A program made the translations under genes and the position numbers. Below, piece by piece: positions 5,462 through 14,602 of a stretch of DNA of 22,505 nt. Source of the stretch: a virus; IMG/VR virus record IMGVR_UViG_3300010412_000088, positions 1 to 22,505 of that record; one strand, written 5' to 3'. The notes beneath the pieces were generated by a model, which was given only the letters and a program-made list of their open reading frames with translations, was not told where the DNA came from and made no database searches. Within the stretch, counting starts at the first letter, position 1, and each line of letters starts with the position of its first letter.

Positions 5462-6715
5462 ATGTCTAATAATAACGGTTCATGGAGAACTTGGGTATCA
5501 GAAAAGCTAAATCCGGCGCAACCTTCCATTGCGTCGCTAGAACCTTTTGCATCCCCTGAAACAATAGTAGACTACGAGCAGGCGTATAGAGAAATCGAAA
5601 TTATACACCGAGCTATAGAAATGGTAATTAGTGCCTGCGTAGAAGTTCCTTTAATTATTGAAGGCAATGGGCCTGCAAAGAAAATCAATAAGCTACTCAA
5701 TGTTAAACCGAATCCTTTTGAGGATAGAGTGCGTCTATTTAGGCGCGCTTTTTTAGATTTTCATTTAGACGGTAATGTGTTCTTTCATTATGACGGAGAG
5801 AGTTTATATCTTCTTCCTGCTAATGATGTTGAAGTTGTGCCTGACGAAAAAACTTTCGTATCCCACTACAACTACTTAGTGAGTAACCAGCGTTCTACAG
5901 ACCACTACGGATTCAATAAACAGACTAGAAAGTCTACCGCTATTCGTTTTGAGCCAAATGAAATTATACATATAATGAATGAAAATGAGCACTCTATATT
6001 TAGAGGCACCTCTAAGCTAAAGCCAATTCTTCGTTTGATTGAGCTTTACTACTATATGATTAATTTCCAACGTCAGTTTTTCAAAAACAACGCTCTGCCA
6101 GGTTTTGTTCTAACTACTGATAACATACTATCAGCTAGAGTTAAACAACGACTATTAGAAGCTTGGCGCTCTACGTATACTACTATATTTGATGGCGCCA
6201 GAAATCCGGCTATTTTAGACGGTGGACTAAAGATTGACCGTTTTTCTACAGTCAACTTCGACCAGCTTGATTTTGAAGAGTCTATAGAACGCATACAGCA
6301 AGACATGGCAAAAGCTCTAGGCGTGCCTTATGTTTTGATGAAGTCTGGTAACAATGCAAATATAGATGCAAACCAAAAGCTATTCTATTTACATACTGTG
6401 CTGCCTATTTTAAATCAGTTTTCTAGCGCATTTTCACATTATTTTAATACAAGTGTGGCTATTAGACCAGATAGGTTAGCAGTGCCAGCACTTCAGCCAG
6501 ATAATAAGACTCAAGCCTCCTATTATGCAACTTTAGTTAACACGGGAATCATTACACCAAATGAAGCTCGTGAAGGTTTAAGATTTGCCAAAATTGATGG
6601 GCTTGATACAATAAGAATACCGCAGAATATTACTGGAAGCGCAGCGAATCCAGCAACTGGTGGTAGACCAGACTCTGATTCAGCGTCTGTGAGCGAGGAA
6701 ACAACTAATGATTAA
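5462..6715 (+). CDS. Portal protein (HK97/lambda-like, Phage_portal family)
   Basis: A 417-residue protein of the usual portal length. It forms the dodecameric ring at the capsid vertex through which DNA passes. Recognisable features are the N-terminal 'Y..AYREIEIIHRAIEMVI' helix, the clip-region 'LNVKPNPFEDRVRLFRRAFLD' segment, 'GNVFFHY', the 'F.P.EIIHI' strand, the long stem helix around 'LIELYYYMINFQRQFFKNNA', and the C-terminal 'MAKALGVPYVLM' and 'TGIITPNEARE' motifs common to HK97-type portals. The start is supported by AAAGGA at 5445-5450. It sits between packaging and protease genes and overlaps the latter by 8 nt. Confidence 0.95.
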   Translation: MSNNNGSWRTWVSEKLNPAQPSIASLEPFASPETIVDYEQAYREIEIIHRAIEMVISACVEVPLIIEGNGPAKKINKLLNVKPNPFEDRVRLFRRAFLDFHLDGNVFFHYDGESLYLLPANDVEVVPDEKTFVSHYNYLVSNQRSTDHYGFNKQTRKSTAIRFEPNEIIHIMNENEHSIFRGTSKLKPILRLIELYYYMINFQRQFFKNNALPGFVLTTDNILSARVKQRLLEAWRSTYTTIFDGARNPAILDGGLKIDRFSTVNFDQLDFEESIERIQQDMAKALGVPYVLMKSGNNANIDANQKLFYLHTVLPILNQFSSAFSHYFNTSVAIRPDRLAVPALQPDNKTQASYYATLVNTGIITPNEAREGLRFAKIDGLDTIRIPQNITGSAANPATGGRPDSDSASVSEETTND

Positions 6716-9275
6716 TAAAACATTTTATTTAGATAGTTCTTTCGAAGCTAAAGCTGTAGGTAAGGAATCTAAATCCTTAAAAATAGCAGGGTATGCCAAT
6801 ACTACTGCCAAAGACCGTGCAGGAGATGTTGTTACAGCCGAAGCATGGGCAAAAGGCGTAGAGAATTTTAGAAAAAACCCTGTTATGCTATATCAACACA
6901 AGCATGAATGCCCTATTGGCCGTTTTGATAAAATTACGGTTGATAAAAAAGGTATTTATGTGGAAGGTAGCGTAAGTGAAGCCGCTGAGAAAACACACGG
7001 AATCCATACGCTAATCAAAGATGGAGCTTTAAAAAGTTTCAGTGTTGGCTTTAGAGTCAAAGACGGTAAATATAACAGCAAAGATGACACTATGCTGATT
7101 ACAGACGTTGAACTACTAGAAATCTCAGTAGTAAGCGTGCCTTGTAACCAAGAGTCTCTGTTCAGTATTAGAAAAAGCTTTGAAAATACTGAAGAGTATA
7201 ATTCATTCATCTCTTCTTTTAAAGAAGCTTCCATTGAAGAAAAAAGAATGATGGACGGAATTAAAGCTGGTTATACAGATATAGTTGATGGTCACTACCA
7301 CACTATTGAAGTAGATGATGAAGGTAATGGTGTTACAACTTATACTTCTCATATGCAAAACCACGCACATAAAATTGTAAATGGTGAGATACAAGAGGCT
7401 ATGGGGCATACACACTCAATAGCTGTAGTAGGTGTCCCTGTTGCAACTGAAGAAGAGGCTGAAGTTAATGAGCGCCCTCTATCTCCTTCTGAATTAGAAG
7501 CAATTGGTAAGTCAGAAGAACTAAGTGAAAAATCTGAGCTAGAAACAGCTACTAAAGACGTTGCCGCAGTTGAAGAAACTGAGGAAGTCGAAGAGATAGA
7601 CGATATAGTAGACCCTAATGCTAGTATTCCGTTTATCAATCTGCTATCTGCAGAAGTAGAAAGTATCAAAGCTGGAGACCTTGTAAATTACAAAGAAAAA
7701 TTCTACAAGGTAGCCGAGACGCCAACTGTCCAAAACCCAAACTTTAAATTTTTAGAAGTTGACGCAAACGGTAAAGACTGTGATAATACTATTAATGTGA
7801 ATACAGACGAGATATCACAAATCAATAAAACAATTAAGACTATGAGTGAAGATACAGTTTCTAAAGAACAATCCTCAGAAGCCCTTCACGAAGATTCAAC
7901 AAAGGAGAACGACAAAATGGCTGAACAAGTCGTAGAATCTATCGACCTAACCGAGGCAAAAGCCGAAGTTAACAAAAGCGTGGCTACTGTCTCAGCACCA
8001 CGAGTTGCTGATCTAGTTGAAAAAACTGGTGAAGCTATTCTCAAGGAAGCTGATGCAAAAGAAAAAGCTGGTGCTTATACACCAACACAATCTGATGAAG
8101 TTAAAGAACTTCAGGCTCAGATGGCAAAGTATCGTGACGAGATTAAAGCTCTGCAGAATAGCAAAATGCTATACGCAGAAAACTCTCGCACTGGTTCTCA
8201 GTTCTCTGAGAAAGAAATGGCTAACGCTGTTCTACTTTCCAAGCTACTAAACAAGCGCGATGTATTTGATACTAAGTACGGTTCCCGTATGAAGGCAATT
8301 ACTTCCGAAACCCTATTCCTATCCAACTTCTCTTCCAACATCTACACTGAAATGGAACAGCAACTAGTTATTGCTCCAATGTTCAACCGTATTCCAGTTG
8401 ACGCTAAGAGCTTCCGCGTTCCAGTAGCTGACGAAGATACTGATGGTGATGTAGCAATGTTCGCTAGTGGTACTTACGCAACAGGTATTGCTGACCTAAC
8501 TAACGTACCAACATCCAATCAGCACAGCATTTCTGCAGTTGAGTTTACTCCACACAAGTTCATGGCTTCTACTCACCTTGCAAAAGACGAAGAAGAAGAT
8601 ACAGTTCTACCACTTATCGACTTCCTACGTACTGCAGCTACTCGCCGTCTAGCTCGCGCTATTGATAAGTCCATCCTACGTGGTACTGGCGCTCTATCCG
8701 GCTTCACTGCATCCCCAACTAACGCTATTACTGCTGGTACTGGTTATGCTTCTGTTATCAAGGGTATCACTGCTCTTGCTGCTGCAGCATCCCTAAATAC
8801 TCCAACAGGAACTACTACTGATAAGGCTGACCCAAGCGATATCGCTGCTGCTCGTACTCTTATGGGTAAGTATGGCCTACAGCTTGGTAACGACCTAGTT
8901 TATGTAACTTCGATCGAAGGCTATAATAACCTAGTAACTACTGCTGACTTCCGTACAGTAGATAAGTTTGGTCCAAACGCTACTTACCTAACTGGTTCAG
9001 TAGGTGCTGTATACGGTATTCCAATCGTAGTATCTGAGTTCATGGACTCTGCAGCTGCTGCTTCTAATACAATCGGTACTCTAATCTATAAGCCAGGCTT
9101 CCTAATCGCTGAGCGTCGCGGTATTGAAGTAGAAAGTGAATACGAACCACGTCAGCAAGTTACAGCAATGTATCTAAGCACTCGCTTCGATTTCAAAGCT
9201 CTAACTACTGTAGCAAGTGCAGCTCTAAGCTCACGCTATGCTTACGCAGTAAACGTTTCCACTGCTGCTGCTTAA
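6708..9275 (+). CDS. Prohead protease (S78) fused to HK97-fold major capsid protein
   Basis: An 855-residue polyprotein; AGGA at 6696-6699 serves the ATG, which overlaps the portal gene by 8 nt. Residues ~22-160 are an S78 prohead protease with likely catalytic His64 ('YQHKH', His66 less likely), Ser112 ('FSVGF') and Glu138 ('LLEISVVSVP'). Residues ~160-400 are an acidic linker holding three HxH motifs (196/198, 219/221, 234/236) and a small beta segment near 310-355. Residues 404-490 are helical and charged, resembling the HK97 delta scaffold. The rest is an HK97-fold capsid protein, with the E-loop/N-arm around 'FRVPVADEDTDGDVAMFASG' and a C-terminal 'GTLIYKPGFLIAERRGIEV' segment. Most phages encode these as two genes. 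A strong internal start at 7917 would give a separate 452-residue capsid precursor. Codon choice changes sharply in the capsid half, as expected for a far more abundant product. Confidence 0.93.
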   Translation: MINKTFYLDSSFEAKAVGKESKSLKIAGYANTTAKDRAGDVVTAEAWAKGVENFRKNPVMLYQHKHECPIGRFDKITVDKKGIYVEGSVSEAAEKTHGIHTLIKDGALKSFSVGFRVKDGKYNSKDDTMLITDVELLEISVVSVPCNQESLFSIRKSFENTEEYNSFISSFKEASIEEKRMMDGIKAGYTDIVDGHYHTIEVDDEGNGVTTYTSHMQNHAHKIVNGEIQEAMGHTHSIAVVGVPVATEEEAEVNERPLSPSELEAIGKSEELSEKSELETATKDVAAVEETEEVEEIDDIVDPNASIPFINLLSAEVESIKAGDLVNYKEKFYKVAETPTVQNPNFKFLEVDANGKDCDNTINVNTDEISQINKTIKTMSEDTVSKEQSSEALHEDSTKENDKMAEQVVESIDLTEAKAEVNKSVATVSAPRVADLVEKTGEAILKEADAKEKAGAYTPTQSDEVKELQAQMAKYRDEIKALQNSKMLYAENSRTGSQFSEKEMANAVLLSKLLNKRDVFDTKYGSRMKAITSETLFLSNFSSNIYTEMEQQLVIAPMFNRIPVDAKSFRVPVADEDTDGDVAMFASGTYATGIADLTNVPTSNQHSISAVEFTPHKFMASTHLAKDEEEDTVLPLIDFLRTAATRRLARAIDKSILRGTGALSGFTASPTNAITAGTGYASVIKGITALAAAASLNTPTGTTTDKADPSDIAAARTLMGKYGLQLGNDLVYVTSIEGYNNLVTTADFRTVDKFGPNATYLTGSVGAVYGIPIVVSEFMDSAAAASNTIGTLIYKPGFLIAERRGIEVESEYEPRQQVTAMYLSTRFDFKALTTVASAALSSRYAYAVNVSTAAA
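7901..7919 (+). promoter_or_regulatory. Internal ribosome binding site and ATG for a separate capsid precursor
   Basis: AAAGGAG at 7901-7907 is followed after 9 nt by an in-frame ATG at 7917 (codon 404 of the polyprotein). It is one of the best Shine-Dalgarno matches in the window and lies exactly at the boundary between linker and capsid scaffold domain. Initiation here would give a 452-residue scaffold plus capsid protein in excess over the protease fusion. Confidence 0.75.
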
Positions 9276-9349: not shown

Positions 9350-10675
9350 ATGAATAATTTAGAAGAAGGTCTTGGCAAGTACGCATATATAAATCTTGCG
9401 CAAGTTAAAGATTATCTTAGTATAAGCAGCAATACCCAAGATGCTAGGTTGAGCAATATTATTCATTATGCTACCGGCGTTATTGAGCATTATATTGGGC
9501 AAGAAGTATTAGCTAATGACTATGTTGAAACGTTTGACGGAGGAGTTTCTTCTGTTTTTGTTAACAGACTACCTTTATCAGCAGTCTATCAAGTAACAGA
9601 GTTTAACGGAAGCAAGCATGTTGTTTTAACTGACCCACAAGTAGATGGGAGTCCTATTGGTAACTCTCCAGGCACTGCTTTAGTATCAGTAGGCACTGTC
9701 GAACTAAGTTCGAGAGTTAAAAAATTTGGGTCTAGCAGTGCTAAGTTATCAAACACATCGTATATTTACTCAAATAGTTTATCTCCAGACTTGCGTTTTG
9801 GAGAAGGAGATTTTACTATTGAGATGTTTGTCCGCACTGATAGTGCTTTGCAAAACGTCTCTATCTTTACTATGGAGCAAAATGCTTCTAATTCTGTAGA
9901 TTTCAAACTAGCTAACGCTCATGGCCTAGCATTAACTACTAATACAGCAGGGATTGCTTCTACTATTCTAGGGGCTAATACTCTAGTCGAAAGCCAACTA
10001 TATGTACCGCGTCACTGGAACCATGTCGCTGTCACTAGAGATACAGTCTCAGAAAGAGTATATCTACATTTAAATGGCACAACAATAGCCAATACTTTTG
10101 TTGCTACTACAGATATGACTTACTCTAATAGCTTATCAATAGGTAAAACATTTGCTGGCTATATAGATGAAGTACGAGTTTCAACCGTAGCTCGTTATGT
10201 ATCAGATTTTCAACCACCTTCAAACCGCTTTAGACCTGATGAAGCTACAGCACTACTAATTCATTTCGATGAAACTTACCAGCAAGCGAATATACAAGAT
10301 GCGCACAGCGCTCCTCAGGGATATAACTTTTCTACTACCACTGGCGAAATTACAAAAGATACTGGTGCTGGAAGCACACTCCGCACATATCGCTCAATGC
10401 AAAAGTCATACCCTGCACTAAGCATTACTGGGCCTGCTGCTTTTGCACCATACCCGAACGGCGTAAAAGTTAACTATAGAGCCGGATATGAAGTCGGTAA
10501 AGTACCTTACGATTTACAAATAGCTACTCTCGACTACATCAAAACTATATACAAGCAAGACCAAGAAAAACGTTCATTCAGTTTTGAGGGTGAGCGCGGA
10601 GACAGCTTTGAGCTATCAGGTAACTTCCCACCACATGTACGCAGGGTTCTTGACTTGTATAGGATTATTAAGTAA
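9350..10675 (+). CDS. Head-tail connector (gp6-like) with a LamG/concanavalin-like insertion
   Basis: 441 residues; AGAGGTG at 9337-9343, 6 nt before the ATG. Residues ~13-80 ('NLAQVKDYLSISSNTQDARL' and following helices) and the C-terminal ~75 residues ('GVKVNYRAGYE' then 'LQIATLDYIKTIYKQ') match the two halves of HK97 gp6/DUF3199-type connector proteins, normally ~100-200 residues, which form a ring under the portal. Between them lies a ~190-residue module (about 110-300): 'FGSSSAKL', 'GDFTIEMFVRTD', 'HWNHVAVTRD', 'VYLHLNGT' and 'GYIDEVRVS' form the classic run of a Laminin-G/concanavalin-type jelly roll. The connector role fits its place right after the capsid gene. The purpose of the inserted domain is unknown; display at the neck is inferred. 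Confidence 0.82.
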   Translation: MNNLEEGLGKYAYINLAQVKDYLSISSNTQDARLSNIIHYATGVIEHYIGQEVLANDYVETFDGGVSSVFVNRLPLSAVYQVTEFNGSKHVVLTDPQVDGSPIGNSPGTALVSVGTVELSSRVKKFGSSSAKLSNTSYIYSNSLSPDLRFGEGDFTIEMFVRTDSALQNVSIFTMEQNASNSVDFKLANAHGLALTTNTAGIASTILGANTLVESQLYVPRHWNHVAVTRDTVSERVYLHLNGTTIANTFVATTDMTYSNSLSIGKTFAGYIDEVRVSTVARYVSDFQPPSNRFRPDEATALLIHFDETYQQANIQDAHSAPQGYNFSTTTGEITKDTGAGSTLRTYRSMQKSYPALSITGPAAFAPYPNGVKVNYRAGYEVGKVPYDLQIATLDYIKTIYKQDQEKRSFSFEGERGDSFELSGNFPPHVRRVLDLYRIIK

Positions 10676-12449: not shown

Positions 12450-13679
12450 ATGAGTACAGCTCTTAATTTACAAAGAAATTCTGAGGTCTATGTATCTACT
12501 GTAGACTTAGCCAGCGGAGCTGCGGCAACTACAATGACTCCGTCTAACACTTGGAAACTCGAAGTTTTAGCCGGTTTCGCGGTAACTGCCTCATCAGCTA
12601 CACAAGACATTACCTCACTAGAATCTGGACTTGACCCAGACCGCTCACAGCAGCGTTTCAACACTGCTGTTAACCCAGTTGACTGGAACTTACAAGTATA
12701 TCTACGCCCAACCGGAGCAGAATCAACTGCCGCTCCGGGAGCTAACGTAGGTCTAGGCTCTAACTCACGCCCAGTCGCTGACTGGTTCATGTGGCAGTCA
12801 CTGGTATCTAATACTCGTCCTAGCACAGGTACAGCTATGCAGTCTGCCTGGCAAAACGGCGGTATTCTGCGTACTACAACCGTAGCAGCCGCAGCTAATA
12901 CAGCAGCTTCAAAATCTAACTTCGCAGTTCCTAGCGAAATGCACATGTATTTCAAACTTGATAACGTAATCTATCAGGTAGCTAACTCCTCTGTAGGACA
13001 AGCTACTGTAGATGCTGGCATCGAGGAAATTGCTACAGTTACTTGGACAGGGCAGGGACTAAGCCTAAAGCAACTAATCGGCACTAATAAAACTAATGCT
13101 GAGGCTGTATTCAAAACAGCTAATGCTAACGCTACTAACCTTACAGCTGCTGCTAGTTACCACCCATACAACCAAACATCTGTTAATGGTTCACTAGGTA
13201 CAAACTCTTTCATCAAGAACCGTTTAAGCACCATCCAAATTAACTATGATGATGGTAGCGGTAACACAGCTTTCACACTACCAGTTACAGCTTTAAGTTT
13301 TGATTATAACAATAACTTAACTTACCTATCTCCAGAAGAACTAAATACTCTGAACACTCCGATAGGTTCGTTTGTTGGTACACGTGCTGTTACAGGTTCT
13401 GCTACAATGTACTTACGCGTTAATGATAATGAATCTGCTGGTTTAATGCGCAAGATTATCAATGATACTCGTACTACTTCAGCCCAGTCAGCAAATGCTA
13501 ACTTAATTATTGGCGGTACAACAGCACCATATGTATCATTCTTTATGCCAGCTGTACAATTTGACTTCCCACAAACTGCTATCGAAGACGTAATCGCGGT
13601 AAGCGTTAACTTCGTAGCACAAGAGCCAACAGCTTCAAAAGGTGATGGCGGAGAAGTTGTAATAACTGCCAAGAAGTAA
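12450..13679 (+). CDS. Major tail tube protein
   Basis: 409 residues preceded by AAGGAG (12436-12441). Rich in Ala, Thr, Asn and Ser and largely beta, as expected of a tube subunit. The C-terminal region ends with 'IEDVIAVSVNFVAQEPTAS', resembling the last strand of tube proteins. Like the capsid half, it is enriched in C-ending codons compared with its neighbours, consistent with high expression. It stands directly before the frameshifting chaperone pair and the tape measure, the fixed position of the tube gene in long-tailed phages. It is longer than lambda gpV (246 residues), so an extra surface domain may be present; I cannot name it. It is followed by an extensive RNA structure. Confidence 0.85.
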   Translation: MSTALNLQRNSEVYVSTVDLASGAAATTMTPSNTWKLEVLAGFAVTASSATQDITSLESGLDPDRSQQRFNTAVNPVDWNLQVYLRPTGAESTAAPGANVGLGSNSRPVADWFMWQSLVSNTRPSTGTAMQSAWQNGGILRTTTVAAAANTAASKSNFAVPSEMHMYFKLDNVIYQVANSSVGQATVDAGIEEIATVTWTGQGLSLKQLIGTNKTNAEAVFKTANANATNLTAAASYHPYNQTSVNGSLGTNSFIKNRLSTIQINYDDGSGNTAFTLPVTALSFDYNNNLTYLSPEELNTLNTPIGSFVGTRAVTGSATMYLRVNDNESAGLMRKIINDTRTTSAQSANANLIIGGTTAPYVSFFMPAVQFDFPQTAIEDVIAVSVNFVAQEPTASKGDGGEVVITAKK

Positions 13680-13686
13680 TAATTTC

Positions 13687-13802
13687 TGAGGGGAAATAAT
13701 TACAAGATTTAACCAGAGAGCGTCTATCGGCTTGCGAAACAAAGTTTCCCCTCACTTTGCTTAGCAGATTCCCCGATGGACGCTCACTTTTATAGAGGGA
13801 AA
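13687..13802 (+). promoter_or_regulatory. Structured leader: long hairpin with pseudoknot option, overlapping the chaperone ribosome binding site
   Basis: This covers most of the 126-nt gap between tube and chaperone genes. GAGCGTCTATCGG (13718-13730) pairs with CCGATGGACGCTC (13773-13785): 13 bp with one G-U. An inner stem (13732-13744 with 13755-13767, two mismatches) presents the 10-nt loop TTTCCCCTCA (13745-13754). That loop is perfectly complementary to TGAGGGGAAA at 13687-13696. It is also complementary, with one bulged C, to GAGGGAAA at 13795-13802, which contains the ribosome binding site of the next gene (ATG 13806). The outer stem is followed by ACTTTTAT, so it may also end transcription in part. 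The pairing is read directly from sequence; regulation is inferred. Confidence 0.7.
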
Positions 13803-13805
13803 CCA

Positions 13806-14237
13806 ATGAGTAAACTAAAATCAATGCTAGTACAAGACACTTCTACCTGGGTAGAATTTCCAGATATACCTGGTTTTGAAGTAAATCTTCGCTTTATTAC
13901 AAGAGAAGAACTACTGAAAATTCGTTCAGCTAGCTTAACTTATAAATTTAATAAGCGCACTCGTCAACGTGAAGAAGAAGTTGATAGCGCAAAATTTCTA
14001 GAAAACTATGCAGAACGCGCAATTTCAGGATGGAAGGGTTTAAAAATTAAACATCTTCCTCTGCTTATGCCAGTAGATATAAGCAGCTTTAAACCAGACG
14101 ATGAGCTAGAATATAGCCCTGAAGAAGCTGTAGAATTGCTGAAAAACTCCCCAGTTTTTGACCAATTTGTTACTGATTCTCTAGCTGATTTTGAACAATT
14201 CTCGCGCAAAAAAGCTGAAGATAACGCAAAAAACTAA
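13806..14237 (+). CDS. Tail assembly chaperone, zero-frame product (lambda gpG analogue)
   Basis: 143 residues from the ATG at 13806, 6 nt after GAGGG (13795-13799). An in-frame ATG at 13776 is rejected because it lies inside the RNA hairpin stem and has no ribosome binding site. The protein is small, helical and charged, opens with 'MSKLKSMLVQDTSTWVEFP' and has a 'RFITREELLKIR' segment typical of tail assembly chaperones. The acidic C-terminal half ends in 'RKKAEDNAKN'. It binds the tape measure and recruits tube subunits in related phages. The last sense codons form a -1 slippery heptamer directly before the stop, giving a longer second product (see 13806-14602). Confidence 0.85.
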   Translation: MSKLKSMLVQDTSTWVEFPDIPGFEVNLRFITREELLKIRSASLTYKFNKRTRQREEEVDSAKFLENYAERAISGWKGLKIKHLPLLMPVDISSFKPDDELEYSPEEAVELLKNSPVFDQFVTDSLADFEQFSRKKAEDNAKN

Positions 14238-14602
14238 CCAATTACCTCCGCAACCAGCTTGGTGGCGGAGGTTTAACTCTTGACCAGTATTTAGTTATGT
14301 GTGAACAGATGGGGTGGGAGCCTGCTGAAGAAGAAATCCCAGTAGATCCTGCCTCATTCGACTTAGAAGTACAGCAAGCGCTAGTACTATTAAATACTTT
14401 ACCAGATAAGTGGGAAGGTATGAGCGGTACTTGGATGGGTAAAGACTATAGTGGCTTAGGCACTATAATGGATATATACGACATAGAGGATAGACGACAA
14501 GTATTTGAACTATTGCAAGTAGCAGAAGCTGAATTATCACGCTACTACGCGCAAAAACAAAAAGAACAAGAAGCCATGAGCAAGGCAAAGAGAGCAAAGT
14601 AA
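13806..14602 (+). CDS. Tail assembly chaperone, -1 frameshift fusion product (lambda gpGT analogue)
   Basis: At A AAA AAC (14228-14234) a -1 slip bypasses the TAA at 14235-14237. Reading then continues from 14234 in the other frame through 'LTNYLRNQLGGGGLTLDQYL' to the TAA at 14600-14602, giving about 265 residues. The downstream frame is open for the whole distance between the slip site and its first ATG at 14297. That ATG has no ribosome binding site, so independent initiation is unlikely. The added domain ('LDQYLVMCEQMGWEP', then an acidic stretch and a C-terminal basic helix) is the T-like half that contacts tube subunits in lambda. The minor product appears in the virion assembly path but not in the virion in lambda-like phages. 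Confidence 0.88.
14228..14272 (+). promoter_or_regulatory. Programmed -1 ribosomal frameshift site with stimulatory hairpin
   Basis: The slippery heptamer A AAA AAC is in the correct zero-frame phase (gcA AAA AAC TAA). Nine nt downstream is a hairpin: ACCTCCGC (14244-14251) pairs perfectly with GCGGAGGT (14265-14272), extended after one A-G mismatch by ACCA/TGGT around a GCT loop. The zero-frame stop lies between slip site and hairpin. This is the standard arrangement for tail-chaperone frameshifts. Confidence 0.9.

Follow-up and report, generated by a model that had tools for sequence, protein, structure and literature searches.

A conserved two-hairpin RNA element with a predicted kissing-loop contact in the tube-chaperone gap of uncultured T5-like phages

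Siphophages produce the tail tube protein and the tail chaperone and tape-measure proteins in different amounts from one transcript, a difference usually ascribed to the strength of the ribosome-binding sites. Control of translation by a loop-loop pseudoknot is known from repZ of the IncI-alpha plasmid, where the pairing activates translation. The guanidine-II riboswitch (mini-ykkC) carries tandem hairpins with kissing loops upstream of a Shine-Dalgarno sequence, the exposure of which has been proposed to vary with the kissing state; its ACGR tetraloops form two G-C kissing pairs, its ligand is known and its linker is the anti-Shine-Dalgarno sequence (PMC9300104). We describe here a conserved RNA element, so far undescribed and absent from Rfam, that is located, in a widespread and uncultured group of aquatic phages, between the gene for the most abundant tail protein and those for some of the scarcer ones. 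Neither the contig in which it was noticed nor 8 diverse relatives matched any family at the gathering thresholds of Rfam 15 (best sub-threshold E value, 0.39 or worse), and no phage tail element of such a layout was found in the open-access literature. For Rfam and for the papers found, this agrees with the original prediction, which knew of no described element built in this way.

The phage record and the gap between tube and chaperone genes

The window, by which we mean the whole stretch of 22,505 nt that was analysed (22.5 kb), is the viral contig IMG/VR record IMGVR_UViG_3300010412_000088. It encodes, in this order, the portal, protease-capsid, tail terminator, tail tube, tail chaperones and tape measure. 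The portal is nearest to those of T5-like Demerecviridae (35-37% identity) and the tube protein shares 27-29% identity with Demerecviridae major tail proteins, identities that place the contig in a distant, uncultured T5-like lineage. Further, a nucleotide search of cultured phages with the contig returned no match. A single 855-aa ORF (6708-9275) fuses a prohead serine protease (Peptidase_S78, residues 12-162) to a capsid domain (Phage_capsid, residues 540-832), and another ORF (9350-10675) has a head-tail connector-like N-terminus together with concanavalin A-like lectin and head-completion domains. A gap of 60 nt (14237-14297) lies between the two chaperone ORFs, which thus show no obvious G/GT frameshift overlap of the lambda type. 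An in-frame ATG at 13776 lies upstream of the chaperone start (ATG at 13806), within the 3' arm of the second of the two hairpins listed below; its use would add 10 residues, and no clear ribosome-binding site precedes it. The features of the gap and of the genes on either side are as follows.

12450-13679, + strand: major tail (tube) protein gene, T5 pb6-like (phrog_3575 major tail protein, E 8e-48)
13676-13703, + strand: hairpin H1, with a lower stem (13676-13680/13699-13703) and an upper stem (13682-13685/13694-13697), from fold prediction and alignment A2
13687-13693, + strand: H1 loop UGAGGGG, one half of the predicted kissing contact (GAGGGG in 121/121 relatives)
13704-13717, + strand: linker between H1 and H2, with an ACCAGA motif conserved in the contig's clade (alignment A2)
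13718-13785, + strand: hairpin H2, from fold prediction and compensatory changes in the alignment
13746-13754, + strand: apical loop of H2 (CCCCTC in 121/121 relatives)
13795-13802, + strand: chaperone ribosome-binding site GAGGGAAA, a possible competing partner of the H2 loop (GAGGG enrichment; no co-change)
13806-14237, + strand: tail assembly chaperone gene, downstream of the RNA element (phrog_313 tail assembly chaperone, E 3e-16)

Searching IMG/VR with the proteins of the tube and chaperone genes and with divergent relatives, and extending the search to bacterial genomes, we obtained 123 chaperone loci with a readable upstream gap, which represent 34 lineages at 80% identity. All but two of these loci (121/123) carried GAGGGG followed 51-67 nt later by CCCCTC; the two that were missing both motifs belong to the cultured T5-like Erwinia phage KEY and Vibrio phage 234P7B. 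In most lineages, the small H1 carries GAGGGG at its tip and the long H2 carries CCCCUC in its apical loop. A covariance model built from the contig's clade alone found one strong match per record, at the homologous place, and a single significant match in this contig. The same model detected divergent clades on which it had not been trained (E values of 7e-6 to 1e-14); two divergent-clade records fell below detection. When 16 phage records were searched for second copies, the best extra match (G014, positions 36193-36281, E 0.001) was rejected as an unrelated hairpin without either motif. That locus (L263) is, in its own right, a strong hairpin with a 13-bp stem within an apparent coding region (fold z -4.7). 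The only relative among the bacterial genomes (L187) lies on a contig of 5 kb that had been binned with a SAR86 MAG, which may hint at a host or be a stray phage contig.

Two hairpins and their complementary loops

The outer stem of H2 (13718-13730/13773-13785) is the 13-bp helix that had been predicted, with one G-U pair. Above it, the original prediction had drawn a single inner stem (13732-13744/13755-13767); pairing is predicted there as well, but in two helices, a middle one (13732-13735/13764-13767) and an apical stem (13740-13745/13754-13759), with internal loops between them. Likewise, the loop lies where it had been placed but measures 8 nt (13746-13753) and not 10, the earlier count having taken in the closing U-A pair. 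A 3' bulge occupies 13768-13772. None of 200 shuffles folded as well as the region of the element (z -3.3). From base to loop, H2 stands ~24 bp high in nearly all lineages (20-27 bp in all but one), the asymmetric 3' bulge beside its outer stem is kept across clades, and an internal loop, CUUGC/GCAGAU, is conserved clade-wide. The primary sequence of the stems is replaced from clade to clade, as in the outer-stem examples GGGTGTTCAYC, GGGTAGCTACC, GAGRCAGCTATC and GGCGCTTACCG.

The H2 loop had also been predicted to have a perfect complement upstream, and it does: TGAGGGGAAA (13687-13696), which occurs once in the contig, is the exact complement of the loop, and CCCCUCA (13748-13754) in the loop is complementary to 13687-13693. 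The pairing stands, yet the partner is not the single strand that had been envisaged. TGAGGGG is itself the apical loop of H1, a hairpin that starts on the tube stop codon (TAA, 13677-13679, in the base of H1), and the contact would therefore join loop to loop rather than loop to single strand. Across lineages, H1 starts at or just past the tube stop and GAGGGG follows the stop by 8-24 nt (8 nt in this contig); most lineages show a clear hairpin, but in some (e.g., L149 and L187) it is weak, so that a clean prediction is not obtained everywhere. Over all 22,505 bases the + strand has a single GAGGGG and a single CCCCTC, and the 117 nt upstream would be expected to contain the 10-mer about 1e-4 times. 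Together with the conservation in 121 of 121 relatives, this expectation bears out the earlier judgement that the match is unlikely to be accidental. Chance complementarity in an ordinary intergenic gap has nothing in its favour except the small size of the motifs; already refuted by the conservation, it retains a practically negligible probability.

The alignments provided further evidence for both stems. Compensatory double changes were present at 17 of the 25 predicted pairs in the alignment of the contig's clade, and alignment A2 showed them at 10 of 11 alignable pairs of the H2 outer stem, along with changes on both sides at 4 of 4 pairs of the H1 upper stem. Nested and kissing pairs were standard in 97.5% of cases, against 46-54% when the partners were slid by 1-3 columns. 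The 6-bp core, GAGGGG x CCCCUC, never varies and gives no covariation of its own, so that only its flanks are informative. In the 34 lineages, the H1 flank paired better with its own loop than with the loops of other lineages (2.21 vs 1.41 bp, z 5.0; duplex energy z -4.3); this shuffled-partner test disregards kinship, and we hence added tree-based contrasts, which agree with it but are few. The base after GAGGGG in H1 and the base before CCCCUC (13747) formed G-C in 63 sequences, A-U in 22 and G-U in 17 (102 of 111); the mismatches (9 of 111) fell in three small groups and A-C never occurred. At the four supported independent contrasts of the protein tree, the loop base followed H1 or was unchanged and never went the opposite way, but with only 4 contrasts the sign test was not significant (p about 0.25). 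Covariation of the loop with its upstream partner, which had been proposed as a check, was thus seen in the relatives as co-change at the flanking pair around an invariant complementary core. These results support the upstream pairing as a predicted kissing-loop contact between H1 and H2: two hairpins with complementary apical loops and covarying stems are present, and the contact itself is predicted from the sequence. What sequence comparison establishes is a pair of co-evolving hairpins with invariant, complementary loops, in a single copy and at a fixed position.

An invariant core could also mean protein recognition. A phage or host protein, such as the tube or chaperone protein, would then bind the GAGGGG/CCCCUC tip and the similar ribosome-binding site of the chaperone gene and exert feedback repression. 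The loop cores are invariant where the stems change freely, the same motif appears again at the chaperone site, and the conserved internal loop of H2 would also suit such binding. However, there is no protein candidate, and the co-change at the flanking pair points to selection on base pairing itself. We hold protein recognition to be improbable.

The chaperone ribosome-binding site and the question of termination

The original prediction also described the upstream partner and the chaperone ribosome-binding site as near-copies of each other. This proved correct: the chaperone site resembles the H1 loop. Its sequence is almost absent from the sites of other genes in these contigs. GAGGG was found in the chaperone site of 24 of 34 lineages vs 1 of 105 other genes in the same contigs, an enrichment whose Fisher value is overstated because the lineages are related; the other genes had mostly AGGAG-type sites where these were recognisable. 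Further, the energy of pairing with the loop averaged -12.8 kcal/mol for the chaperone site vs -5.8 kcal/mol for other SD-like sites. Because it is so unusually G-rich, the chaperone site looks matched to the loop. This likeness would be left unexplained if the kissing complex were a stabiliser that keeps exonucleases off the 3' end of the abundant tube message, or a processing site cut by a double-strand-specific RNase. Such a function would fit the position, immediately downstream of the stop codon for the most abundant tail protein, and the long, nearly perfect outer stem maintained by compensatory changes, and it needs neither a U tract nor a matching site; we nevertheless regard it as quite unlikely.

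Masking of the chaperone site by the loop, as first proposed, was only partly supported by the comparisons. In its favour is the G-rich near-copy; against it are the missing co-change, the clades with weak sites and a tight geometry. For the site, pairing with its own loop was not superior to pairing with the loops of other lineages (z -0.06, 34 lineages), and the base after GAGGGG in the site was A whether the loop base was C (48) or U (17). The H1 flank prefers its own loop and the ribosome-binding site shows no such preference, which suggests that the loop evolves with H1. Moreover, the match of site to loop is weak in about a third of the lineages. The site is reduced to GAGAGG or GAGG in 8 of 34; among the weak sites, GAGAGG characterises an entire clade and GAGGAA occurs sporadically in other lineages. 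The distance from the base of the ~24-bp hairpin H2 to the site is 7-23 nt, and only 7-10 nt in 11 of 34 lineages. A stack of 24 RNA pairs is roughly 65 angstrom long, and in these lineages the loop of an intact H2 would pair with the site only under strain, which bending of H2 at its conserved bulge might relieve. The spacing of the site bore no relation to its complementarity to the loop (Spearman 0.16, p 0.38).

In phages, terminators are commonly placed between abundant and scarce late genes, and H2 could act downstream of the tube gene as an intrinsic terminator of partial efficiency. Transcripts would then mostly stop at H2, so that less mRNA is made for the chaperone and the tape measure, and kissing between H1 and H2 would tune the speed at which the terminator hairpin forms. 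In the marine and clade-B lineages, H2 resembles intrinsic terminators in having a G+C-rich stem base that runs directly into 5-7 U, and a d'Aubenton-type score was above 0 in 10 of 34 lineages. The T content was also higher in the 9 nt after H2 (62%) than in the H1-H2 linker (34%). Unlike intrinsic terminators, H2 has a very long stem, conserved internal loops and an invariant apical loop. This contig's copy fails the score (-52) and does not look like an intrinsic terminator; many of its clade-mates (e.g., L101, L116 and L112) keep the structure without a U tract, and no alternative antiterminator stem was seen. A pattern scan found no terminators in the contig, but its loop limit of 3-8 nt excludes stems like H2. 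Partial termination is in our view unlikely as the general explanation: it may be an added role in some lineages and is not the conserved role of H2.

Tail-protein ratios and comparison with known systems

The reading that we prefer, tentatively and with slightly less than even confidence, is that the ~120-nt element acts in cis as a kissing-loop RNA in the tube-chaperone gap of the late mRNA and sets the expression of tube versus chaperone. H1 would form on the tube stop codon and H2 would end 7-23 nt before the chaperone site, with the tips UGAGGGG and CCCCUCA joined in a compact kissing complex. We infer that the element would set the yield of the chaperone and of the downstream tape measure against that of the very abundant tube protein mainly via chaperone translation. 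In the resting fold, H1 would occupy the H2 loop and leave the chaperone site free. Opening of H1, for example by ribosomes finishing the tube gene, would free the H2 loop, which might then bind the G-rich site where geometry allows, the least certain step of the model. Of the putative two-state switch in the original prediction, the upstream pairing found support and the evidence that the site is hidden is mixed.

The same components could give a ribosome-gated negative coupling, in which ribosomes finishing the tube gene melt H1, the H2 loop captures the chaperone site and heavy tube synthesis curbs the chaperone and tape measure. If true, this would fix the stoichiometry of the tail. A ribosome terminating on this contig's tube stop would overlap the 5' arm of H1, because GAGGGG follows the stop after 8 nt. 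With a gap of up to 24 nt elsewhere in the group, however, ribosome gating is at best lineage-dependent, and we rate it as rather unlikely. A discrete RNA device at this locus makes the control of tail-protein ratios directly testable, and the invariant kissing tips and near-constant height of H2 make it a good structural target.

Cultured T5-like Demerecviridae (e.g., KEY and 234P7B) share the order of terminator, tube, chaperone and tape-measure genes, but in the records examined tube and chaperone are separated by a minor tail gene, and the genes almost abut. These phages were rejected as holders of the element, which is absent from the records examined. At the cultured T5-like loci (L159, L160 and others), the minor tail gene stands where the uncultured group has the RNA element; the gene was not found elsewhere in 8 records of the uncultured group, in a search without a positive control. 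As proposed for the phage element, repZ has a hairpin loop that pairs near the ribosome-binding site of the next gene and is coupled to termination of upstream translation, but the genes, the sequence and the order of the hairpins differ. The guanidine-II riboswitch is closest in layout, with tandem hairpins, kissing loops and a downstream Shine-Dalgarno sequence in common. Membership in that family was rejected because the loops here are CUGAGGGG and UUCCCCUC and ACGR loops are absent. The phage element is set apart from it by 7 predicted kissing pairs, loops of 8-11 nt, a second hairpin of ~24 bp and its place in a phage operon.
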